From: Pandoraea pneumonica
GTDB lineage: Bacteria > Pseudomonadota > Gammaproteobacteria > Burkholderiales > Burkholderiaceae
DNA length: 64,000 nt
Assembly (NCBI RefSeq): GCF_902459645.1
Contig: NZ_CABPSK010000002.1
Location: 868,001 to 932,000 of the forward strand
Direction: 5' to 3'
Under the pieces are notes generated by a model that was not told where the DNA came from, ran no database searches, and saw only the letters and a list, made by a program, of their open reading frames with translations. A program made the position numbers and the translations under genes. The stretch's first letter is position 1. Each line of letters opens with the position of its first letter. This document shows, piece after piece, positions 3,529-13,894 of the stretch.

Positions 3529-3546
3529 CCTACATGAGCATGCAGG
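3529..3546. promoter_or_regulatory. Candidate lux box upstream of the accessory cluster
   Basis: The 18-bp sequence CCTACATGAGCATGCAGG is an inverted repeat with 7 of 8 arm positions matching around an AG centre, and it fits the CT-N12-AG core of LuxR-type operators. A weak -10-like TTAAAT lies at 3570-3575, which would put the box centre near -44, the usual class II LuxR activation position. A luxR-type gene is at the other end of the cluster. Short arms can match by chance, so this is a candidate only. Confidence 0.45.
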
Positions 3547-3656
3547 TGTTCGGCGCGGATGCCATTCGCTTAAATGACGCTTCACGGCGTGCATGAGCGA
3601 ACGATTTCGATCTGCCACGCCATTCCGTTGCCTTCGGGCAAGACTTCAGGAGAGGC

Positions 3657-4742
3657 ATGGTGGGGCATCCGCACGAAACCCTATCGACGGTCGCCATACC
3701 CACGGCGTGTGGCGCGTCTGGCCCGTGTGGCGATGCCGAGCCGCCGCTGCGCGTGTCCGATTCCTTTCTACAACCTTCGCCGCCGCTATTTACGGACATC
3801 GATGGTCTATGCGCCGCGACGGTTCATCTCAAGTTGGAAGGGCTTAACGCCGCGGGCTCCATCAAGCTCAAGACGGCGCTCCAACTCATCGACGATATCG
3901 AAGCTAGCGGAGGAATTCGCGAAGGCACGCGGCTGATCGAATCGTCGTCAGGCAACCTGGGCGTGGCGTTGGCAATGGTCTGCGCTCACCGAGGCTATCG
4001 CTTCACTTGCGTGACCGACCCCGACACCTCTCAGCACGCTGTGCGCACGATGCAGGCGCTGGGCGCTCGCGTCGTACGCGTTGACCGTCGCGATGCCCAG
4101 GGCGGTTTTCTCGCGACGCGTATCGCATGGATTCACGAGCAATTAGCAAGCGACGGCGATTGGCTCTGGATCAATCAATACGCGAATCCCAGCAACTGGC
4201 GTGCGCACTATCGCTGGACTGCACCGGAGATATTCGCAGCCTATGCATCGGTGGATCACCTCTTTGTCGGCGCCGGTACGACAGGCACATTGATGGGGTG
4301 CTTGCGGTATGTGCGGGCGAATCATCCGCAGACGCGCGTAATCGCTGTCGACACGGTGGGCTCGGTCACTTTCGGCGCCGCACCGGGGCGTCGCTACATG
4401 CCCGGGTTGGGCACGAGCCGGCGCCCCGAGTTGTGCGATCCCTCGCTGCCCGACGCCGTTGTCCACATCCCTGAGATCGAGGCGGTTCGAATGTGTCACG
4501 CGTTGGCGAGCCGCGGCTACTTCGCAGGCGGTTCGACGGGCAGCGTGCTATGCGCGGTGCAGCGTGAAGCGGCACGAATCGACGTCAACGCGACCGTGGT
4601 CGCGATCGCGCCCGACATGGGGGACAAGTATCTGGATGGCCTCTACGACGCGTGCTGGGTGCAGCGGTGCTTCCCGCAAATGTCCAGCGCCGACATGCCG
4701 GCGTCCTCCGTCATCGAAACGGTTACCCCATCCTTGCCATGA
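3657..4742 (+). CDS. SbnA-like PLP synthase (N-(2-amino-2-carboxyethyl)-L-glutamate synthase family)
   Basis: A 361-residue fold-type II PLP enzyme of the cysteine-synthase superfamily, closest in pattern to SbnA. SbnA joins O-phospho-L-serine and L-glutamate to give N-(1-amino-1-carboxy-2-ethyl)-glutamate, the first step to L-2,3-diaminopropionate. The PLP lysine is in AAGSIK (K70); the substrate loop is SSSGN (96-100); the phosphate-cradle glycines are GAGTTGT, and GGSTGS appears near the C-terminus. About 45 residues precede the fold. ATG 3657 follows CAGGAGAG at a good distance. It overlaps the sbnB-like gene by ATGA, the same gene pair as in staphyloferrin B, zwittermicin and viomycin clusters, which supports the assignment. 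Substrate identity is inferred. Confidence 0.85.
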   Translation: MVGHPHETLSTVAIPTACGASGPCGDAEPPLRVSDSFLQPSPPLFTDIDGLCAATVHLKLEGLNAAGSIKLKTALQLIDDIEASGGIREGTRLIESSSGNLGVALAMVCAHRGYRFTCVTDPDTSQHAVRTMQALGARVVRVDRRDAQGGFLATRIAWIHEQLASDGDWLWINQYANPSNWRAHYRWTAPEIFAAYASVDHLFVGAGTTGTLMGCLRYVRANHPQTRVIAVDTVGSVTFGAAPGRRYMPGLGTSRRPELCDPSLPDAVVHIPEIEAVRMCHALASRGYFAGGSTGSVLCAVQREAARIDVNATVVAIAPDMGDKYLDGLYDACWVQRCFPQMSSADMPASSVIETVTPSLP

Positions 4743-5773
4743 GCGCGATTCCGATACCTCAATTCCGTGTGTTTACCGGGGAGCAGATTCACGCCGTGGT
4801 GCGCGACGGCCGTCGTGCTGTGCTCAATACGGTCGAAACGGCCTATCGAGCGCACCATGCTGGCCGCACCGTCAACCCCGAAAGCCAATTCCTGCATTTT
4901 CCCGGCGGACCCTCGAATCGGATCATCTCGCTACCTGCTCACATCGATGCTGGCGACGGCGATGGCGTCACGGGCATCAAGTGGATATCGAGTTTTCCGG
5001 AGAACATCACACATGGCATGCCGCGCGCATCCGCCGTGTTGATTCTGAACGATGTCGTGACGGGCTATCCGATGGCCTGCATGGAGGCCAGCATCATCAG
5101 CGCAGCACGCACGGCGGCGAGTGCGATCAGTGCGTTACGGTGTTTCTCCCGCAGCGGGACAACGGTGACGAAGGCAGTACGCGTCGCTTTTGTCGGCACG
5201 GGATTGATCGCGCGACACGTTGCGGAGTCTCTGCCGCTGGCCGACGTGCCGATCGAGCGAGTCGTACTGCACGATTTGAACGAAGGCTACGCTGCGCTGC
5301 TTGCGGGACGCATACAAACGCACCTCGGTTACGAAGCCGTCACTGAGACTTCCCTTGAGCAAGTCGTTCGACAAGCGGATGTCGTGATCTTTACAACGAC
5401 GGCCTCCGTTCCCTACGTCGACAACCCCGATTGGTTTGCTCATTGCCCTGTGGTGTTGCACTTGTCGCTTCGCGACCTTGCACCTGCCGTGGTGCTCGAG
5501 TCCTACAACGTCGTCGACGATATCGAACACTGCATGCGGGCGATGACATCGCTGCATCGTGCAGAGGTGGCGACTGGACATCGACGCTTCGTAACGACAT
5601 CGCTTCCCCACCTGCTCAGCGGAGGGGAAATACCCCCACGCGATCGTCCGATCGTGTTCTCGCCGTTCGGCATGGGCATTCTCGATATCGCCGTCGGCCG
5701 TTGGGTCTACGAAAAGCTGGCGGCACAGCAGGCACCGATTCCCCGTTTCTTCTACGATATGCAACGCGCATGA
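4739..5773 (+). CDS. SbnB-like dehydrogenase (ornithine cyclodeaminase/mu-crystallin family)
   Basis: A 344-residue member of the ornithine-cyclodeaminase/mu-crystallin family. The SbnB branch oxidatively cleaves the SbnA product with NAD+ to release L-2,3-diaminopropionate and 2-oxoglutarate. The NAD-binding Rossmann motif is VAFVGTGLIARHVAE (about residues 151-165), followed by an acidic residue in VVLHDLN. Upstream are the family KWISSFPEN and MEASIISAARTAA segments, the latter lining the active site. The start ATG 4739 overlaps the preceding stop (ATGA), and the gene itself ends in an ATGA overlap with the adenylosuccinate-synthetase-like gene, so the three are translationally coupled. 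Pairing with the SbnA-like enzyme makes diaminopropionate the likely shared product. Confidence 0.85.
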   Translation: MSAIPIPQFRVFTGEQIHAVVRDGRRAVLNTVETAYRAHHAGRTVNPESQFLHFPGGPSNRIISLPAHIDAGDGDGVTGIKWISSFPENITHGMPRASAVLILNDVVTGYPMACMEASIISAARTAASAISALRCFSRSGTTVTKAVRVAFVGTGLIARHVAESLPLADVPIERVVLHDLNEGYAALLAGRIQTHLGYEAVTETSLEQVVRQADVVIFTTTASVPYVDNPDWFAHCPVVLHLSLRDLAPAVVLESYNVVDDIEHCMRAMTSLHRAEVATGHRRFVTTSLPHLLSGGEIPPRDRPIVFSPFGMGILDIAVGRWVYEKLAAQQAPIPRFFYDMQRA

Positions 5774-7263
5774 CTTCTGCTTCCTGCTCTACCACCTCCT
5801 CTGCATCGTCCACGTTGCCCGCCCCGCCTGACGCCCCCGCCGGGTATGCCGACGTACTTGTCGGCCTGCAATATGGCGACGAAGGCAAGGCAAAGATCAT
5901 CGATGTACTGGCCACTGAATACGACGTGATTGCGCGCTTCAATGGCGGTGCCAACGCCGGTCACACGATCGATACGCCGCTGGGGCGCATCGCGCTCAAA
6001 CAGATGCCTTCCGGCGTATTTCATCCGCACGCGGCGCTCTACATCGGATCGGGATGCGCGCTCAATCCGTGGAAGCTGGCCGACGAGATCACGCAATTGC
6101 GCGAGATGGGGGTGGAGCTCGACGGACGTCTGCATATCAGCGCACGTGCCGCCATCGTGCAACCGCATCACATCGCGCTCGACCGACGCGGCAGTGCCGC
6201 TATCGGTACGACTGGCAACGGCATCGGGCCTTGCTACGCTGACCGCGCATTACGCGTTCGCAATGAAGCAAGAGTCAACTTCATGCTCGGCGATCTGCTC
6301 GATAACGAAGCGGAGACGGTCGGGGCGATGCGCCAGGTACTCACTGGCATGATCAATGCGGATGGCGGAACGTCGCCGTGGGTTGCTGAAATGTCGGATC
6401 TGCTACTGCGCCTGCCCGACGTCATGACGCTATTACGACCGCACGTCGAAATCGATCGCAACTGGCTCACGAGGCGCGTGAAATGTGGCGCAAGGGTGTT
6501 GTTCGAAGGGGCGCAATCGGTTTTGCTCGACGTCGTCGACGGTAGTCAGCCGTATGTGACGTCGAGTCATACCGTGCCCGCCTATGCGTACGTGGGCGGC
6601 GATCTGTCGCCGAAGTACCATCGCCGGACGATTGGTGTGGCGAAGGCGATCATGTCCCGCGTTGGACGCGGGCCATTTCCTTCTGAGTTGGGCGGCGAGC
6701 GCTCCGCAAAATATTGTCGAGAGGCCGCAGAAAAACACATCGGCATCGAGCACGAACACGAGCGATTTTGTGCCGATACGCTATTGCGATCCAACGACGC
6801 GTTCGAGGTCGGCGCGGCACTTCGTATGCTGACAGGCGAATACGGTACCGGTACCGGCAGGCCGCGTCGCATCGGCATGCTCGATCTTGCGCAGCTTCGC
6901 GAGGTCGTCAAGGCACATGGCGTTGACCGTCTTTATTTGAACAAGGTCGACTGTCTGGCCCACTATCTCCAGTCGTCGTATCAAGGCGTGCCGATGCGCG
7001 TGCACCGCGATGTGCTGCCCAGCGAACATATTCCCGATGTGCTGATTTATCCCGGGCTCACCGAACGATCGCTGGCGTACGGCCGCGAAGGGCACTTGGA
7101 CGCGGGGCTCGGTGGATTCATCGATTTCGTCGAGCGCCACATTGGCACGCCGCTCGCCGGTATCGGGCTGGGGCCGGAGCGGGCAAGCATGCTACTGCTC
7201 GACGGTGCAAAACCTACTGTGCCGTCCTGCGCCGTTGTACCGCAGGTGACAAACCATGGTTGA
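5770..7263 (+). CDS. Divergent adenylosuccinate synthetase paralogue within the accessory cluster
   Basis: A 497-residue homologue of PurA, the GTP-dependent enzyme that joins IMP and aspartate. Key elements are present: GDEGKAK P-loop (36-42) with the catalytic aspartate D37, NAGHT with the catalytic histidine (H65), GTTGNGIGP (146-154), EGAQ (246-249), VTSSHT (263-268) and the aspartate-loop region GTGTGRPRRIG (359-369). Deviations from the housekeeping pattern are visible. GTTGRGIGP has Asn in place of the basic residue; the loop TTGR has become GTGR, losing one threonine of the aspartate-carboxylate site; GWLD is GMLD. There is also a 25-residue N-terminal extension and an insertion before the aspartate loop. 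It overlaps the genes on both sides. It may be a biosynthetic ligase acting on another acceptor or amine, or a self-protection copy; the sequence does not decide. Confidence 0.88.
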   Translation: MTSASCSTTSSASSTLPAPPDAPAGYADVLVGLQYGDEGKAKIIDVLATEYDVIARFNGGANAGHTIDTPLGRIALKQMPSGVFHPHAALYIGSGCALNPWKLADEITQLREMGVELDGRLHISARAAIVQPHHIALDRRGSAAIGTTGNGIGPCYADRALRVRNEARVNFMLGDLLDNEAETVGAMRQVLTGMINADGGTSPWVAEMSDLLLRLPDVMTLLRPHVEIDRNWLTRRVKCGARVLFEGAQSVLLDVVDGSQPYVTSSHTVPAYAYVGGDLSPKYHRRTIGVAKAIMSRVGRGPFPSELGGERSAKYCREAAEKHIGIEHEHERFCADTLLRSNDAFEVGAALRMLTGEYGTGTGRPRRIGMLDLAQLREVVKAHGVDRLYLNKVDCLAHYLQSSYQGVPMRVHRDVLPSEHIPDVLIYPGLTERSLAYGREGHLDAGLGGFIDFVERHIGTPLAGIGLGPERASMLLLDGAKPTVPSCAVVPQVTNHG

Positions 7264-8152
7264 GCCATGGCATGAATCGGCCGCAGTGCGGCGTCGCCAC
7301 GGCGATGCATCGTTTCCGCCGCTATTGCCCGATCACCTGTTTTTCAACCTGTCGTTGATGCCGTACGCGACGCATCCGTGCGTTTGCGCGCTCGGCCAGC
7401 CGGTGCGTCAGCGGTTGAGCGCACTGCGCCTGGCTGACTATCTGAGCAAGACGGAACGCGTCGAGTTGTTTATCGTCAATCGCGCGGTCGAACACATGCT
7501 CGACGTGCCCGGCATCGCATCGGTGCATCGTGACGACTTGTTGGCGATCTACACCGATGAAGGCTTCCACACTTGGATGATGGAGCGCTTTCGCGGTGAC
7601 CTACATCGGCAGACCGGCTGCACGTTGCCACAACAACCGTCGCTCAGCGTCATTCGGGTGTTGGCGTTGTGCGAGGCAGTGCCGCTAGCGTACCGAGGAC
7701 TCGCGATCATGGCGGCGGCATCGGTCACGGAGACATTGATCACGGGGACGCTACGACGCGCGGGCGCGTCGGACGACGTCTATGCGCCGGTCGGTGTTCT
7801 GCTGGCGGACCACGCGGCCGATGAGATGCGGCATCAGGCGGCATTCGTGCGATTCGTCGGCGAATGGCTGCCGACGTTGTCTCGCACGGAGCGCGAGTTT
7901 CTCAATGCGCTGATTCCTGACTTGATGATGGCGTTTCTGGCGCCGGAGTTGCCGACTTGGCGAGCGCACCTTTGCGCCGTTGGGCTCGACGAGGACGTTG
8001 CCGACACTGTGATTCGCGAGAGTGTCGATCCACTGGAAGTCGGCGTGCAAATGATGGAGGCCGCCCTCGTGCCTCGCCGACTGTTCGAGCGGTTAGGCAT
8101 GTCATGCGCTCAAACGTTTGCGCAACAAGCGAGCCGATGGCGTCCGCCTTGA
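7256..8152 (+). CDS. AurF/CmlI-type diiron N-oxygenase
   Basis: A 298-residue ferritin-like diiron oxygenase of the AurF family, whose known members oxidise aryl or alkyl amines to hydroxylamine, nitroso or nitro groups. All seven metal ligands of AurF can be placed: E70, E102 and H105 (DEGFH), E159, then H186, E190 and H193 in DHAADEMRH. E159 to H186 is 27 residues, exactly the AurF spacing, and the EX28-37DEXXH signature is met. The ATG at 7256 overlaps the preceding gene by 8 bp. A 99-bp gap with a decamer repeat follows. The substrate is unknown; the neighbouring diaminopropionate genes suggest an aliphatic beta-amine or a ureido nitrogen. Confidence 0.85.
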   Translation: MVEPWHESAAVRRRHGDASFPPLLPDHLFFNLSLMPYATHPCVCALGQPVRQRLSALRLADYLSKTERVELFIVNRAVEHMLDVPGIASVHRDDLLAIYTDEGFHTWMMERFRGDLHRQTGCTLPQQPSLSVIRVLALCEAVPLAYRGLAIMAAASVTETLITGTLRRAGASDDVYAPVGVLLADHAADEMRHQAAFVRFVGEWLPTLSRTEREFLNALIPDLMMAFLAPELPTWRAHLCAVGLDEDVADTVIRESVDPLEVGVQMMEAALVPRRLFERLGMSCAQTFAQQASRWRPP

Positions 8153-8200
8153 TCTCTGCCTGAATCGATTCCATCGCAGCGCCGCGTCGCAAAGGCGGTG

Positions 8201-8240
8201 AGCATCGACACGCATCGATAAGCATCGAAGAGCATCGATA
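8201..8240. repeat. Four tandem 10-bp repeats between two cluster genes
   Basis: Four exact-register decamers occupy 8201-8240: AGCATCGACA, CGCATCGATA, AGCATCGAAG, AGCATCGATA, with consensus AGCATCGATA. They fill the 99-bp gap between the diiron oxygenase and the carbamoyltransferase, ending directly before the AAGGAG ribosome binding site of the latter. The period is about one helical turn, so it could present a protein-binding face or act as a slippage tract that changes leader spacing. No function is shown. Confidence 0.8.
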
Positions 8241-8251
8241 AGGAGATTCCC

Positions 8252-9298
8252 GTGACTTCCGGCTGGCTTGCCCCTGACTTGACGATGAGTGCCGCGGACT
8301 ACCGCGAGTTGGTCGGTGCGGCACTTGCGTTCAAACGACGCTATCCGCAACACACGGAACTCGTGCTGCGTGGCCGAACGATCTATTTTCTGTTCTATAA
8401 CGCGTCGTTGCGCACACGGAGTAGCTTCCAGACGGGGCTCTTGCGCATGGGCGGGCATCCCATCACGCTCGATCCGCAGAATGGCATCTACACCCCGGCG
8501 CTGCCCGAGGCGGAGGTTCCCTATTCGACGGAACGCGTGGCGGACGTGGCGCGTGTCTTATCGGCATATGGCGACGCCATTGCGATTCGGATGTACGGCG
8601 ATCCGGCTGGCTGGGTGTATGGCGGTGCTCACCGACATCTCGAAGCCTTTCGGCAGTGGGCGAGCGTGCCGGTCATCAACATGGAGTTCGACCGCTTTCA
8701 CCCATGCCAGGCGCTCGCCGACATCATGACGTTACGCGAGCAACTGGGTGGTTTGACCGGGTGTCGGCTCTGCATCAGTTGGGCGTATTCGGGAAGTTGG
8801 CACAAGCCGGTCGCGGTGCCGCAAAGCCTGCTGCTTGCGGCAGTGAAATCGGGCATGGATGTAACGCTCGCGCATCCTCCTGCCTTCGCGTTGGACCCGG
8901 ACGTCATGCGCGCGGCCAAACAGTTTGCGGCGCATACGGGCGCGAGCTTGCGCGTCACACATGATTTTCGTGATGGCGTCGCCGACGCACATGCCGTCTA
9001 TGCGAAATCATGGTGCAGTCTTGCGCATCTCCCGGCGCGCATCGGTGAGCCGGTGGATGAGGCCGCCATGCGCGCCGCATTCGAGGCGCATCGTGACTGG
9101 CGCGTCGATCAGAGCGTGATGCGCCAAGCCGCACCCAGCGCCGGATACTTGCATTGCCTGCCAGCCGATCGGGGGCAGGAGGTCACGGACGATGTGATCG
9201 ACGGGCCACAGTCCTGGGTATTCCAACAGGCGGCCAATCGGTTGCACGCGCAGAACGCGGTCATGGCGCATCTGCTCAACCCGGGGTGTCTGGCATGA
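8252..9298 (+). CDS. Carbamoyltransferase, N-acetylornithine carbamoyltransferase-like
   Basis: A 348-residue aspartate/ornithine carbamoyltransferase-family enzyme that should transfer a carbamoyl group from carbamoyl phosphate to an amine. The carbamoyl-phosphate motif is SLRTR (52-56), HPCQ is at 150-153 and HCLP at 301-304. Segments such as YAKSW (250-254) and NRLHAQNA are closest to N-acetylornithine carbamoyltransferase. The segment that recognises acetyl- or succinyl-ornithine in that enzyme is replaced by unrelated sequence around residues 76-90, so a different acceptor is likely. In this cluster diaminopropionate or an N-oxidised derivative would give a beta-ureidoalanine-like product; that is inference. 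The start is GTG 8252 behind AAGGAG, and the gene overlaps the next one by ATGA. Confidence 0.85.
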   Translation: MTSGWLAPDLTMSAADYRELVGAALAFKRRYPQHTELVLRGRTIYFLFYNASLRTRSSFQTGLLRMGGHPITLDPQNGIYTPALPEAEVPYSTERVADVARVLSAYGDAIAIRMYGDPAGWVYGGAHRHLEAFRQWASVPVINMEFDRFHPCQALADIMTLREQLGGLTGCRLCISWAYSGSWHKPVAVPQSLLLAAVKSGMDVTLAHPPAFALDPDVMRAAKQFAAHTGASLRVTHDFRDGVADAHAVYAKSWCSLAHLPARIGEPVDEAAMRAAFEAHRDWRVDQSVMRQAAPSAGYLHCLPADRGQEVTDDVIDGPQSWVFQQAANRLHAQNAVMAHLLNPGCLA

Positions 9299-10569
9299 CG
9301 GTCGCGTATCAATACGTCTGCGTCAGTTGCGCAGCGCCGCAGGCGTGGGGGGCGTTGTGCTATCGATGCCCCTTGTGCGGCCACAACCTGCGAATCGAAA
9401 ACATGCGGGAAAAGGGCGACGATGCGCCGTCATCGGGGGCGGAGATCGTCGCTGGCTTTCGCGGCACAGGCATGTGGCGTTATGCGCCGTTGCTGCCGGT
9501 GTCGGCGTGCTGGGCAAGTCGTCTCGCCGTCGGCGGCACGCCGCTGCTCACCTTGGGGGATGACGAAGGCGTGCATCTTTGGATCAAGGATGACAGCCGC
9601 AATCCGAGCGGTTCGCTCAAGGATCGGGCGACGGAATTGGTCCTGGCGGCTGCCAAGTGGTTTGGCTGCTCGCGCGTAGTCGCGGCGTCGACGGGCAATG
9701 CGGGGGCATCGCTGGCCTGCATTGCCGCGTCACAACAGATGCCCGCGACTGTCGTGGTGCCGAGGCATACCCCGTATGTGAAACTAGCGCAAATACGCGC
9801 CTACGGGGCCCAGTTACATGTGATCGACGGCAATTACGACGACGCCTTCGACCTGGCGACCGGCATGGCCGATGCGCCTGAAGTGTGCTGTCGCAACACC
9901 GGGTTCAATCCGTTCACCCGCGAAGGCAAGAAGACCTGTGCGTTCGAAATCGCAGAAGCGCTCGATTGGGACGTGCCCGATTGGGTTGTGGTGCCGACGG
10001 GCGACGGCAACATTCTCTCGGGTATTGCGGCGGGGTTTCTGGCGCTCTATGCGTGGGGTATCGCGACGCGAGTGCCGCGTTTGCTCGCGGCGCAGGCCAG
10101 CAGTTCGCACAGCATCGCGCATGACTGGTTGGTCAGCGAGGCGTCAGGTGCGCTGCCCGCGGTGCCGACGCCGATGGTGCCAAATACCGTGGCCGACAGC
10201 TTGTCGGTGGCGCGCCCGCGTGACCATCTCGCGGCGTTACAAGCGTTGCGAATGACGCGTGGCGCCTGCGCCATCGTGACCGATGCGCAGATCATGGCGT
10301 CATCGCAGTTGATGTCGCATCGCCATGGCTTGTGGTTCGAACCGTCGGCAGCGGCAGGGCACGCCGCCCTTAGCGACAGCATTTCCAGCGGGCGAATCGC
10401 GCGGGGCGCACGTGTCGTCCTACTCGGCACCGGCAGCGGCCTGAAAGACCCGCACGCCTACGAGCGTGTCGCGTGCGATACGCCTGAGATTACGCAGCCG
10501 CGCGACACCGTGCCGTCATCGATCTTCCCCGGCGACACGCCCGATGCTCGCGTGCGAGGCCGCCCGTGA
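9295..10569 (+). CDS. Threonine-synthase-like PLP enzyme with N-terminal zinc knuckle
   Basis: A 424-residue fold-type II PLP enzyme resembling threonine synthase. Residues C9, C12, C25 and C28 form a CxxC-x12-CxxC zinc-ribbon-like knuckle, as in one threonine-synthase subgroup. The PLP lysine is K109 in NPSGSLKDR, followed by ASTGNAGAS and the PLP-phosphate loop GDGNILSG. Threonine synthase acts on O-phosphohomoserine by gamma-elimination and beta-addition of water; relatives in secondary metabolism do replacement or elimination on other phosphorylated amino acids. Start ATG 9295 and the preceding stop overlap as ATGA; the end overlaps the oxidase as GTGA. About 35 C-terminal residues look unstructured. 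The substrate cannot be read from the sequence. Confidence 0.8.
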   Translation: MTVAYQYVCVSCAAPQAWGALCYRCPLCGHNLRIENMREKGDDAPSSGAEIVAGFRGTGMWRYAPLLPVSACWASRLAVGGTPLLTLGDDEGVHLWIKDDSRNPSGSLKDRATELVLAAAKWFGCSRVVAASTGNAGASLACIAASQQMPATVVVPRHTPYVKLAQIRAYGAQLHVIDGNYDDAFDLATGMADAPEVCCRNTGFNPFTREGKKTCAFEIAEALDWDVPDWVVVPTGDGNILSGIAAGFLALYAWGIATRVPRLLAAQASSSHSIAHDWLVSEASGALPAVPTPMVPNTVADSLSVARPRDHLAALQALRMTRGACAIVTDAQIMASSQLMSHRHGLWFEPSAAAGHAALSDSISSGRIARGARVVLLGTGSGLKDPHAYERVACDTPEITQPRDTVPSSIFPGDTPDARVRGRP

Positions 10570-11525
10570 CGCGCCAACGCGTCATCGTCGTCGGTGCGGG
10601 CGTGAGCGGTCTGACGACCGCCGTCACGCTCGAGATGGCGGGCTGCGATGTCGAGATTCATGCGGCGGAAGCCCCAGCGCAGACCACCTCGGCATTGGCT
10701 GCCGCGATCTGGCATCCGTTCTATCAGGCCCCCGATCTCGTCTATCTCGAAAACGCCCGGCAGACCTATTCGGCCATGGCGCGGCTCTCCGAGGACGAGG
10801 CGTCAGGTGTCACGATGCGCCCGCTCACGGAGTACTTTGCGCGCGATACCGGTACCCCGTGGTGGGCGGAATGCGTTCCGAAGGTCGTGCGGCTGGGCAA
10901 CGACGGTGGCGTGCCTTCGCGCTACGCCTGCGCCTACCGAATGCCGGTTCCTGTTGCGGACACGACGCGCTATCTCGGCTATTTGACGACGATGTTCCTC
11001 GATCTCGGCGGCCGGTTCGTGCTCGCTCGCGTCGAAGATCCAGGTGCGTTGCTCGATGACGTAGATTGCGTGGTGAATTGCTGCGGCTACGGAGGCGCAG
11101 CATTCGGTGATGGCGCGATGTCGCTCTCGCGTGCGGTGGTGCTGCGTGCGAGACGCCACGAGGCTGTCACGGGATGCTTTGTCGACGATTCGGACGTGCT
11201 GCGCCCGACCTACATCGTTGAGCGGAGTCACGACATCATTCTCGGCGGCACCGCAGATCCCGACATGACCTCGACGGTGATCGGCGAACGACAGGTGAGT
11301 GACATTGTCCGCCGGTGTGCCGGGCTTTGCGAAGGCGTGACGTCGCTCGACATTCTCGACGCCCGGGTTGGCTTCCGGCCGATGCGCCGGACAGCGCGCG
11401 TGGAACGCGACGCCACGCATGCCGGACTCCTCCACAACTATGGTCATGGCGGCGGTGGCTTCACGCTGTCGTGGGGGTGCGCCAATCAGGTGCTTCGACT
11501 GATGAACGAATCGGCGGTGCACTGA
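10566..11525 (+). CDS. FAD-dependent D-amino-acid-oxidase-like oxidoreductase
   Basis: A 319-residue flavoprotein of the D-amino acid oxidase family. The FAD dinucleotide-binding motif VVGAGVSG begins at residue 8, the family SALAAAIWHPF segment follows near residue 42, and the C-terminal signature NYGHGGGGFTLSWG near residues 293-306 closes the FAD site. Substrate arginine and tyrosine positions cannot be assigned safely without alignment. The start is GTG 10566, overlapping the threonine-synthase-like stop as GTGA. In this cluster it would plausibly oxidise an amino-acid intermediate to an imine or keto acid, or drive a ring-forming oxidation. No signal peptide is visible, so it is cytoplasmic. 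Confidence 0.83.
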   Translation: MTRQRVIVVGAGVSGLTTAVTLEMAGCDVEIHAAEAPAQTTSALAAAIWHPFYQAPDLVYLENARQTYSAMARLSEDEASGVTMRPLTEYFARDTGTPWWAECVPKVVRLGNDGGVPSRYACAYRMPVPVADTTRYLGYLTTMFLDLGGRFVLARVEDPGALLDDVDCVVNCCGYGGAAFGDGAMSLSRAVVLRARRHEAVTGCFVDDSDVLRPTYIVERSHDIILGGTADPDMTSTVIGERQVSDIVRRCAGLCEGVTSLDILDARVGFRPMRRTARVERDATHAGLLHNYGHGGGGFTLSWGCANQVLRLMNESAVH

Positions 11526-11614
11526 TCGTTGATGCGCTTCATTGCGTGCCTCATTACGCGCTTTATGACGCACTACGCACCACCGCGTACTCCGCACACC
11601 TATCGAGGGGCAAT

Positions 11615-12298
11615 ATGCAGATCGATCCAACGACGCTTGACGAAGCCCGCATCTACAACTTCATGATGAGCACCATCCTGCCGCGGCCGATTGCCTGGGT
11701 GAGCACGGTCGACCGGCAAGGCCGCCCCAATCTCGCGCCGTATGCGTACTTCATGGGCGTGTGCTGCGTGCCGATGACCGTGCTGTTCTGTCCTGTGGTG
11801 CCGCCGCCGCCAATGCAAAAGAAGGACACGCTGCGCAACATCGAAGACGTGCCGGAGTTCGTGGTGAATGTGGCGAGTGCGTCGTGTATCGAAGCGGTGA
11901 ATCTCAGTGCCGCGCCGCTGCCACCTGGGGAATCGGAATTTGCGTTGGCAGGTGTCACGCCGGTGACATCTTCGCGGGTGCGTCCGCCGCGCGTTCAGGA
12001 GGCGGGTGTGGCATTCGAATGCGTGGTTCGCGACATCATCGAGATCAGCGCGGCGCCCGGGGGAGGGTGGGTTGTCCTTGGCACGGTGCTGGCAGCGCAC
12101 GTGGACGATGCGCTGCTCGACCCGGCGACGCATCAGGTCGATCTTCGCGCGCTCCAACCCATCGGCAGACTCGGCGGCGGCGAGTTCGTGAATGCGGCGA
12201 GCGACACCTTCACACTGACGCGTTACAAAACACTCGCCGACCTTGCCGCTAGGCGCGATCCGATGCGCGGCGATGCGCGCAACGGGGCCGACGCATGA
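11615..12298 (+). CDS. Flavin-reductase-domain (FMN-binding split barrel) protein
   Basis: A 227-residue protein of the flavin-reductase-like (DIM6/NTAB) family. It opens with PRPIAWVST followed by GRPNLAPYAYF, the usual FMN-binding start of the fold, and later has GESEFALAGVT, also typical. Family members use NAD(P)H to reduce free flavin or carry tightly bound FMN. It could supply electrons to the diiron oxygenase two genes away from the carbamoyltransferase, but that is inference from context. The start ATG 11615 follows GAGGGG; an 89-bp gap separates it from the oxidase, and it overlaps the NHL gene by ATGA. Confidence 0.82.
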   Translation: MQIDPTTLDEARIYNFMMSTILPRPIAWVSTVDRQGRPNLAPYAYFMGVCCVPMTVLFCPVVPPPPMQKKDTLRNIEDVPEFVVNVASASCIEAVNLSAAPLPPGESEFALAGVTPVTSSRVRPPRVQEAGVAFECVVRDIIEISAAPGGGWVVLGTVLAAHVDDALLDPATHQVDLRALQPIGRLGGGEFVNAASDTFTLTRYKTLADLAARRDPMRGDARNGADA

Positions 12299-13146
12299 CG
12301 ACCGCACCGGCATGTGGTGAAGCGCGCGTCGTGGCGCTCGGGGCGCGACGGTATCACGTCGATGCCTCGCCGTTCTCGGAGGATTTGCGTGGTGTACTCG
12401 TCTCCGACGTCGCTGTCGACAAGGCGCACCGTGTGGCGTTGATCATGCGAGGCGCGCCTGTCATTCGGTGGTTCGACGAACAAGGGGAAGCGAAGGGCGC
12501 ATGGCAGCTCGACCAGATGACACACGGCCACAGCGCATGTTTCGACGCACAAGGCAGGCTGCTGGTCGTCGATTCGGACCGTCATTGCGTGCATCGCTTC
12601 GGCGCCGACGCGCAGATCGACACCACGCTTGGCGTTGCCGACGAACCCAGATGGCGCGAGCCTTTTAATCATCCGACTGGTGTGGCGGTTGCTCCGAGCG
12701 GGGAGATATTCGTCTCGGATGGCTACGGCAATTCACACGTCCATCGATTTTCGGCAGCGGGCCGCCACATCGCGAGTTGGGGCAGTCCGGGTGAAGAAGC
12801 CGGACAATTTAGCAACCCGCATGCCATCGCTGTCGATGCCGACGATCAGGTCTGGGTGGTGGATCGCGAGAATCATCGGGTGCAGCGGTTTTCTGCCGAC
12901 GGACAGTGTTGCGGCGAGCTTCGCGGGCTGCATCTGCCGACAGCCATCGCCATCGGTCGTGACGGCATCGTCTACGTGACCGATCAGACGCCACGACTTT
13001 GCGCTTACACGCCGAGTGGGCAACTGATCGGCCGTTGCCGCACTTTCGGTGCCATCGGTCACGGGCTTGCCGTCGACGCGAGCGGCGATATTTATGTCGC
13101 GAACATGATGCCGAACTGCGTCACGAGGTTGCGGCGGTTTGCGTGA
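12295..13146 (+). CDS. NHL-repeat beta-propeller protein
   Basis: A 283-residue protein built almost entirely of NHL repeats, giving a probable six-bladed beta-propeller. Repeated units of the form (G/P)xG-x-hydrophobic-xVxDxxxxHRVxRF are clear, for example VDSDRHCVHRF, VSDGYGNSHVHRF and VDRENHRVQRF. NHL propellers occur in lyases such as peptidyl-hydroxyglycine alpha-amidating lyase and as ligand-binding scaffolds; which applies here is unknown. There is no signal peptide. It overlaps the flavin-reductase gene by ATGA, so it belongs to the same transcription unit, and its last 26 bp overlap the 3' end of the convergent luxR gene. Confidence 0.85.
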   Translation: MTTAPACGEARVVALGARRYHVDASPFSEDLRGVLVSDVAVDKAHRVALIMRGAPVIRWFDEQGEAKGAWQLDQMTHGHSACFDAQGRLLVVDSDRHCVHRFGADAQIDTTLGVADEPRWREPFNHPTGVAVAPSGEIFVSDGYGNSHVHRFSAAGRHIASWGSPGEEAGQFSNPHAIAVDADDQVWVVDRENHRVQRFSADGQCCGELRGLHLPTAIAIGRDGIVYVTDQTPRLCAYTPSGQLIGRCRTFGAIGHGLAVDASGDIYVANMMPNCVTRLRRFA

Positions 13147-13894
13147 GCGCACCGCGGCAGTCTTCGTCGAGCAATCCGTATTCGCTCGCCAGCGTAGCGG
13201 CGCGATGACGGCTCGATACGTCGAACTTGCGCATGACGCTGCGCAGATGAAAGACCACCCCATGCTCCGAGATGGTCAGAATGCGGCCGATTTCCCATGA
13301 CGTTTTGCCGCGTGCCACCCATTGAAGGCACTCACGCTCGCGCGGCGTCAATACCGGTGGCGACGCCGGTGCCGCCTCGCGTTGCACGATGCGCCGAGCC
13401 GCGTCGTGTACGTGCATGGCCAATGTCGCGCCGAGATGAAGGGTCCATGCGCGCAGCCGGGGTCGCGGACGAACATCGGGCGCGGCGAGACTCAATATCC
13501 CGGGTGCCCCGGACGGCGCGAACACCGGGTACGTCACGCCCATGCGAAGTCCTGCGGCTGCCTGCTCGCTGCGCAAACGCGCGGCATCGGGCGTCGTGAA
13601 CAGATCTGGCGTCCATTCCACTGGCGTGAGTTGTGTGCCCGCCTTGGCGAGTACCGGATCGAGGGCGGCATAGCCGCGTTCGTCGTAACGGCGCAGCCAG
13701 GCTTCGGGGTAATTGGAGACTTGGGGCTGCGCAGTGTCGCCACGCGCCAGGGTGAATTGCCCTTGATAGCGAAAGTGGCGATATCTGAGCAGCTCGCACA
13801 GCGATTGCAACTTCGCATGAAGGACGTCGAAGTCGTTGGCCGACTGAAGCGTTTGCAGGCCATCGGCAAACGCATGAAGGATCGCGCAACGCAT
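13121..13894 (-). CDS. LuxR-type quorum-sensing transcriptional regulator (no luxI in window)
   Basis: A 257-residue regulator with an N-terminal autoinducer-binding domain and a C-terminal GerE/LuxR helix-turn-helix beginning LTPRERECL. The residues that contact acyl-homoserine lactone in TraR are all present at matching spacing: W66, Y70, D79, P80 and W94, with a glycine at 119 near the conserved one. It should therefore respond to a lactone signal rather than being one of the divergent LuxR solos. No luxI is in the window, so the synthase is elsewhere or the signal is foreign. The ATG at 13892-13894 is the only start before an in-frame stop. It converges on, and probably controls, the nine-gene cluster. 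Confidence 0.9.
   Translation of the reverse strand: MRCAILHAFADGLQTLQSANDFDVLHAKLQSLCELLRYRHFRYQGQFTLARGDTAQPQVSNYPEAWLRRYDERGYAALDPVLAKAGTQLTPVEWTPDLFTTPDAARLRSEQAAAGLRMGVTYPVFAPSGAPGILSLAAPDVRPRPRLRAWTLHLGATLAMHVHDAARRIVQREAAPASPPVLTPRERECLQWVARGKTSWEIGRILTISEHGVVFHLRSVMRKFDVSSRHRAATLASEYGLLDEDCRGALTQTAATS

Follow-up and report, generated by a model that had tools for sequence, protein, structure and literature searches.

What do nine closely spaced genes, headed by a pair for L-2,3-diaminopropionate (DAP), do in Pandoraea pneumonica, and what controls them? We asked this of a 64,000-nucleotide stretch of contig NZ_CABPSK010000002.1 (positions 868,001 to 932,000 of the forward strand; hereafter the window), in which these genes, a converging luxR gene and a candidate operator occupy positions 3529..13894. 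The reading that we favour, at a probability of roughly 0.5, is that they form a carrier-free DAP operon, which would be controlled by the LuxR-type regulator LuxR3, was inserted once between bioC and the DUF2244-cytochrome c oxidase (cox) genes, and would include in PurA2 a neofunctionalised ligase. The cluster itself is real and conserved and looks undescribed; the best-supported new points are its link to LuxR3 and the subfamily formed by PurA2 and a sister clade, here called P3. A carrier-free DAP pathway would thereby be added to a genus in which, according to the available text of PMC12144892, the pandorabactins were the first natural products to be characterised.

Gene content and distribution of the cluster

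The initial annotation described nine coupled genes running rightward and a luxR gene facing them, and all were found in place, with the overlaps, gaps and families as described. All features given below lie on the forward strand except luxR3. The first two genes, sbnA (3657..4742) and sbnB (4739..5773), both score above the curated equivalog cut-offs for 2,3-diaminopropionate biosynthesis (TIGR03945, 387.8 vs 349.95 bits; TIGR03944, 364.3 vs 326.9 bits), bearing out the DAP module predicted earlier. The family assignments are strong grounds for predicting that SbnA and SbnB make L-2,3-diaminopropionate, the expected substrates being O-phosphoserine and glutamate. Pfam assignments of the other cluster proteins were all above the gathering scores. 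ATGA overlaps join sbnA to sbnB, sbnB to purA2, otc to thrC2 and flr to nhl, and a GTGA overlap joins thrC2 to dao; purA2 and aurF overlap by 8 bp, and gaps of 99 bp and 89 bp separate aurF from otc and dao from flr, respectively.

The cluster appeared to be confined to Pandoraea. A whole-genome search with its AurF-like protein gave strong matches (E no higher than 5.5e-82) in 28 of 32 Pandoraea genomes, the own genome included, and none in 29 genomes from the rest of the family and order. The closest relatives found with this protein were 17 distinct loci, all of Pandoraea, in a scan that rests on short exact peptides and detects close relatives only. We also scanned even samples of 399 genomes of the order, 398 of the phylum and 303 of the class. 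The AurF-like protein (E up to 1e-20) and the carbamoyltransferase (E up to 1e-70) were found in the own genome only, among the order and phylum samples respectively, and the 302 further genomes of the class yielded no PurA2-type protein (E up to 1e-80). Eight plasmid records carried AurF-like proteins, all distant (33% identity or less) and four of them from Streptomyces. Thus, the cluster was not found outside Pandoraea in the samples searched and is apparently genus-specific.

The 28 loci examined comprise the window, L013-L030 and nine further loci (L134-L142). In every one, the eight genes from sbnA to flr (sbnA, sbnB, purA2, aurF, otc, thrC2, dao and flr) and luxR stand between bioC and DUF2244 in an unchanged order; the same gene set does recur in other genomes. 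The exception to the initial gene list is nhl (12295..13146; PF01436), encoding an NHL beta-propeller and counted earlier as a cluster member. It is present in only five of the 28 loci (the window, L013, L014, L030 and L142), falls outside the conserved core and is thus dispensable, an accessory gene. Residue counts and alignments of the cluster proteins given below are based on 19 of the 28 loci, namely the window and L013-L030, and the proteins extracted from the latter 18 are full length. In comparisons with L013 and L014, dN/dS values of the nine genes were 0.056-0.134, with dS at 0.90-1.50 and thus partly saturated.

The insertion between the BioC-like gene and the DUF2244-cox genes, suspected earlier, was borne out by genomes lacking the cluster. 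Among the seven cluster-free genomes searched, one (G003) gave no DUF2244 match, and bioC is directly followed by DUF2244 in all of the other six. These empty sites, with bioC beside DUF2244 and the cox genes, are found both in Pandoraea (G023, G025 and G029) and elsewhere in the family (G033, G035 and G155). The simplest reading is that the cluster was gained once, by the ancestor that the remaining Pandoraea share, the alternative being loss. We dropped the idea that horizontal gain is visible in base composition: G+C is 0.627 in both cluster and window, so composition gives no sign of it.

We found no paper joining Pandoraea with diaminopropionate, in keeping with the earlier view that the cluster is undescribed; searches for the enzyme combination gave nothing recognisable, subscription journals lying mostly outside their coverage.

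LuxR3 and its candidate operator

The convergent gene, luxR3 (13121..13894, reverse strand), encodes an orphan LuxR-type regulator with both the autoinducer-binding and GerE domains (PF03472 and PF00196). At E up to 1e-40, it was found in 28 of the 32 Pandoraea genomes, the same 28 that carry the cluster, and the remaining four (G003, G023, G025 and G029) lack both. According to the available text of PMC6691176, a LuxR solo named LuxR3 is found in nearly all of the Pandoraea genomes studied there, always downstream of the cox genes, and is absent from P. thiooxydans. The luxR gene of the window shares this place downstream of the cox genes, and we equate it with LuxR3 on that ground and not from the published sequence. 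That account, in the part available, makes no mention of the neighbouring cluster; the link to the cluster and the operator described below come from the present analysis.

Upstream of sbnA, 27 of the 28 loci (the window, L013-L029 and L134-L142) carry a 19-bp element, CCTACAYGANNWTGCAGGT, always followed 22 bp on by the -10-like hexamer TTAAAT; the element has one mismatch in one of the nine loci L134-L142. In the window, this element (CCTACATGAGCATGCAGGT) lies at 3529..3547, separated from the upstream bioC stop by 47 bp and from sbnA by 109 bp, and the hexamer lies at 3570..3575. This is the sole exact match to the pattern in the own genome. A CT-N12-AG shape and a place before the -10 hexamer are typical of LuxR-type operators. 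The cluster operon is probably activated by the LuxR3 solo at this lux-box-like operator, as judged from co-occurrence and site conservation. The convergence of luxR had been noted correctly in the initial annotation, which nevertheless drew no link to the cluster promoter; the regulator is co-inherited with the cluster and a conserved lux-box-like site stands upstream of sbnA. LuxR3, published but unexplained, would thus gain a probable target in the adjoining operon.

One locus (L030, G014:C23) carries a diverged version of the cluster (~51-77% identity), with LuxR3 at 50% and nhl present. Its operator, CTACAAGACCTTGTAG, is divergent (four mismatches) but more symmetric, forming the near-perfect dyad CTACAAG-AC-CTTGTAG.

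Two other leads on regulation were abandoned. LuxI (PF00765) was matched in 31 of the 32 Pandoraea genomes, and its distribution was dropped as a guide to the species making acyl-homoserine lactones, many matches being weak (~23-30 bits, mostly in frames of ~300 amino acids). A link to BtaR5 of Burkholderia thailandensis was dropped once the relatives proved to be Pandoraea.

PurA2 and its sister clade P3

purA2 (5770..7263) encodes a protein of the same fold family as canonical PurA (PF00709, 265.1 bits; gathering score 27). Nevertheless, it falls below every equivalog cut-off for adenylosuccinate synthetase, an enzyme of AMP formation, with 243.1 vs 402 bits for NF002223 and 212.1 vs 395.55 bits for another. 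The own genome has a canonical purA elsewhere (600.5 bits) besides PurA2 (316.8 bits). To place PurA2, we compared 31 canonical sequences (E. coli and 30 loci, from at least 30 loci in 40 genomes searched) with 19 PurA2 and 19 P3 sequences, numbering residues as in the E. coli protein without Met. PurA2 and P3 are split together from canonical PurA on a long branch with support of 100/100.

The nucleotide site appeared to be retained in both clades. The residues considered for IMP binding, GTP binding and catalysis (D13, K16, N38, H41, T129, R143, Q224, T239, V273, R303, R305, K331 and D333) are all invariant across the canonical PurA, PurA2 and P3 sequences. The available text of PMC11276676 reports that N37, T121, R135, T230 and V264 of the Helicobacter pylori enzyme hold IMP (inosine monophosphate), and that R294 bonds IMP in the fully ligated structure; we inferred the correspondence with E. 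coli residues from a constant offset. Thus PurA2 resembles canonical PurA in its residues for IMP and GTP. It differs at 35 positions where canonical PurA shows almost no variation and PurA2 has another, fixed state, which is a deletion in five cases. The most telling is position 131, which is Asn in all 19 PurA2 and all 19 P3 sequences, in contrast to Arg in 30 and Lys in one of the 31 canonical proteins. Position 300 was rejected as diagnostic, since the 31 canonical sequences differ there (T 18, V 8, N 3, S 2).

P3 was found as a second copy in six Pandoraea genomes, in 12 other genomes among 329 sampled from the family, and on a Caballeronia plasmid. Its 19 loci (L066-L083 and L038, from Pandoraea and other Burkholderiaceae) all share the same six genes, for a divergent alpha/beta hydrolase, an AraC regulator, RidA, P3, a flavin mononucleotide (FMN) protein of PF12900 and a major facilitator superfamily (MFS) transporter, as searched with queries from two of the loci. 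The transporter is nearest to aromatic-acid symporters (273.5 bits vs a cut-off of 418.55), and no other gene of the DAP cluster was found in any of the 19 loci, each examined over ~20 kb. Since P3 sits in a six-gene operon with an importer-like transporter, an enzyme fits it better than a resistant target does. PurA2 and P3 thus make up a subfamily that keeps the nucleotide site, differs elsewhere and stands in two unrelated neighbourhoods, which suggests undescribed ligase chemistry. These neighbourhoods and the many fixed changes favour, without proving, a reaction of its own over a simple resistant copy. We infer that PurA2 is a neofunctionalised ligase altered on its predicted amine side, not a spare housekeeping enzyme.

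A resistant copy is what the first rival explanation would require. A metabolite of alanosine acts on adenylosuccinate synthetase, and the cluster may make an antimetabolite that, like alanosine or hadacidin, resembles aspartate, with PurA2 as an insensitive copy of the target that shields the producer. Hadacidin inhibits adenylosuccinate synthetase in competition with aspartate (PMC6136348) and L-alanosine is built on DAP (PMC11705231), as the accessible parts of these papers have it. The cluster likewise combines DAP genes with an N-oxygenase-like protein, and a PurA2 that keeps the IMP and GTP residues while changing others could be such a copy. We nevertheless regard this explanation as rather unlikely. 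The deep, long-branched clade (100/100) is not that of a lightly altered copy, and the sister P3 occurs without DAP genes within its ~20-kb loci. Furthermore, the cluster proteins include no cupin, heme-oxygenase-like N-N enzyme or carrier protein, a difference from the alanosine and fragin clusters in the available text of PMC11705231 and PMC5878181.

A phage link for PurA2 was rejected. The match to phrog_1211 is generic, since E. coli PurA scores higher (489.1 bits) than PurA2 (235.1 bits), and the best phage matches to PurA2 are at most 36% identical among the matches listed.

Observations against the favoured reading

Several observations weigh against a LuxR3-controlled operon with a neofunctionalised PurA2. 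The operator pattern was derived from the same loci in which it was counted, and L030 lacks its standard form. Six other places in the own genome match the pattern with two mismatches, and the dyad is symmetric at 12 of 16 positions in the window and at 8 of 16 in the commonest form. A generic sigma-70 scan listed no promoter at the operator and -10 region upstream of sbnA, and no operator-like site was found before luxR3 itself, where the best match has six mismatches. As for PurA2, its separation from P3 has modest support (90/79), and the contact of Arg131 with aspartate, which would put this residue on the aspartate side, is our assumption. Finally, cluster genes are interrupted in three of the 28 loci: otc is in two frames in L134 and L140, and in L135 purA2 is in two pieces ~1.27 kb apart and thrC2 is in two frames. 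In some species the pathway may be in decay or not needed; alternatively, the interruptions may be assembly errors.

The same interruptions also count against another explanation, in which the locus is a metabolic or catabolic operon instead of a natural-product cluster, DAP and purine-linked amines being intermediates of nitrogen salvage. Its presence in most of the genus (28/32) is like that of a core function, it has no transporter or resistance gene, and the P3 operon looks catabolic. However, SbnA and SbnB are biosynthetic, and quorum-type regulators more usually govern products that are secreted or serve the community. We hold the catabolic explanation to be very improbable.

The carbamoyltransferase

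otc (8252..9298; PF00185/PF02729) encodes a carbamoyltransferase whose best curated family is N-acetylornithine carbamoyltransferase (AOTCase; NF003384), with 275.9 bits, under the cut-off of 288. The motifs SLRT and HCLP, Glu145 and Lys252 are kept in all 19 sequences, the Cys of HCLP being Cys302. The motif HDLP, given in the available text of PMC4581275 as the mark of DAP carbamoyltransferases, is absent. Residues expected of AOTCase, according to the same source, were not found either: Thr93, Pro186 and Glu310 replace Glu92, Asn185 and Lys302 in all 19, the aligned PDB chain having Glu at 302 itself. Against the pattern of N-succinylornithine carbamoyltransferase (SOTCase), as far as the source gives it (A/S/P/V/Q; P; V/I/E), Thr is unlisted, and Pro and Glu fit, with the alignment of the loop at ~180-186 uncertain. 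Because the protein resembles N-acylornithine enzymes (AOTCase/SOTCase-like) and lacks HDLP, it is a reasonable guess that its substrate has a substituted alpha-amine.

The parallel with viomycin and zwittermicin, drawn in the initial annotation, does not hold well in this light. Their DAP carbamoyltransferase is similar in standing beside DAP genes, and differs in having HDLP where the Pandoraea protein has HCLP and is nearer to N-acetyl- and N-succinylornithine carbamoyltransferases. In line with the free, ureido-bearing product of the same annotation, the genes may make a free carbamoylated DAP of the 3-ureidoalanine type, which is then N-oxygenated. The joint presence of SbnA/SbnB, the carbamoyltransferase and an AurF-like protein would suit this product. 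We find it unlikely, as HCLP stands for HDLP in 19 of 19 orthologues, the nearest relatives of the enzyme use N-acylornithine, and PurA2 would be left with no role.

The remaining enzymes

aurF (7256..8152; PF11583, 72.5 bits) encodes an AurF-type diiron N-oxygenase-like protein, as annotated initially. The seven diiron ligand positions (E70, E102, H105, E159, H186, E190 and H193, placed by the iron ligands of AurF) are invariant in all 19 sequences, so that the diiron site is intact. The protein is far below the curated cut-off for 4-aminobenzoate N-oxygenase (39.2 vs 620 bits). The threonine-synthase-like enzyme encoded by thrC2 (9295..10569; PF00291), a pyridoxal phosphate enzyme, aligns with threonine synthase (nearest PDB entry 6cgq) and is below the curated threonine-synthase cut-offs (NF006050, 215.5 bits vs 303). 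The flavoprotein of dao (10566..11525; PF01266) aligns over its length to D-amino acid oxidase (nearest PDB entry 1an9, E 2.5e-25). flr (11615..12298; PF01613) encodes a flavin-reductase-domain protein of the FMN split-barrel type (nearest PDB entry 3bpk); nitrilotriacetate monooxygenase component B and 2-nitrobenzoate nitroreductase (4z85) are among its relatives in the PDB.

Proposed steps and comparison with known systems

In the favoured reading, SbnA and SbnB would form L-2,3-diaminopropionate, and the AurF-type diiron protein would oxygenate a nitrogen of a DAP-derived amine, assisted by the FMN protein. The carbamoyltransferase would carbamoylate a free amine on an acceptor that, to go by the N-acylornithine-type relatives, probably has its other amine substituted. 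PurA2, predicted to be GTP-dependent and still to use IMP or a close relative, would join to it an amine other than ordinary aspartate, and the ThrC2 and DAO enzymes may act on amino-acid intermediates. The end product would be a small metabolite made without an encoded carrier protein. We put forward the order of the reactions, the substrates of aurF, otc, purA2, thrC2, dao and flr, and activation by LuxR3 as predictions from sequence.

It is tempting to speculate further that PurA2 attaches the DAP-derived amino acid to C6 of IMP, so that the nucleotide replaces the carrier protein. The purine would hold the alpha-amine and leave the other amine to the N-acylornithine-type carbamoyltransferase and the diiron oxygenase; release of the product would fall to the D-amino-acid-oxidase-like enzyme. 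If this is true, a quorum-controlled metabolite would be made along a nucleotide-tethered, carrier-free route, but we consider it quite improbable.

Among known systems, staphyloferrin B and other DAP clusters are alike in SbnA/SbnB, both past the equivalog cut-offs in Pandoraea. Unlike SbnA/SbnB clusters with assembly enzymes, the Pandoraea pair has beside it no nonribosomal peptide synthetase (NRPS), NRPS-independent siderophore synthetase or carrier domain in a family scan of the ten locus proteins, and the earlier claim that NRPS and carrier protein are lacking stands. Nor were the hallmarks of diazeniumdiolate clusters (a carrier protein, and a cupin or heme-oxygenase-like N-N enzyme) found among the ten. 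The alanosine cluster employs carrier proteins. In the available text of PMC11705231, L-alanosine of Streptomyces is likewise a DAP-derived, nitrogen-oxidised amino acid, and its cluster has the cupin AlnA and draws the second nitrogen from CreD/CreE homologues or nitrate/nitrite reductases; the Pandoraea cluster has none of these. The ham cluster for fragin and valdiazen in Burkholderia, with homologues in Pandoraea, is similar in its AurF-like HamC and quorum-type control, but differs in its NRPS, heme-oxygenase-like protein and cyclase (PMC5878181, in the part available).

Far from the cluster, most cluster-bearing Pandoraea, including G001 and G002, encode another AurF-like protein, which is distantly related (~22-23% identity). 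Its gene is possibly a better candidate for a HamC homologue than the cluster aurF.

Two apparent counterparts in Streptomyces were rejected. A paper on Streptomyces scabies names AurF, SbnB and a carbamoyltransferase, which, in the part of the text available, belong to separate loci and not to one cluster. The four Streptomyces plasmids with AurF-like genes (L033-L036) show no annotated DAP genes in these neighbourhoods. On all four, an asparagine-synthase-like gene lies beside the AurF-like diiron gene, mostly with MFS and PqqD-family genes nearby.

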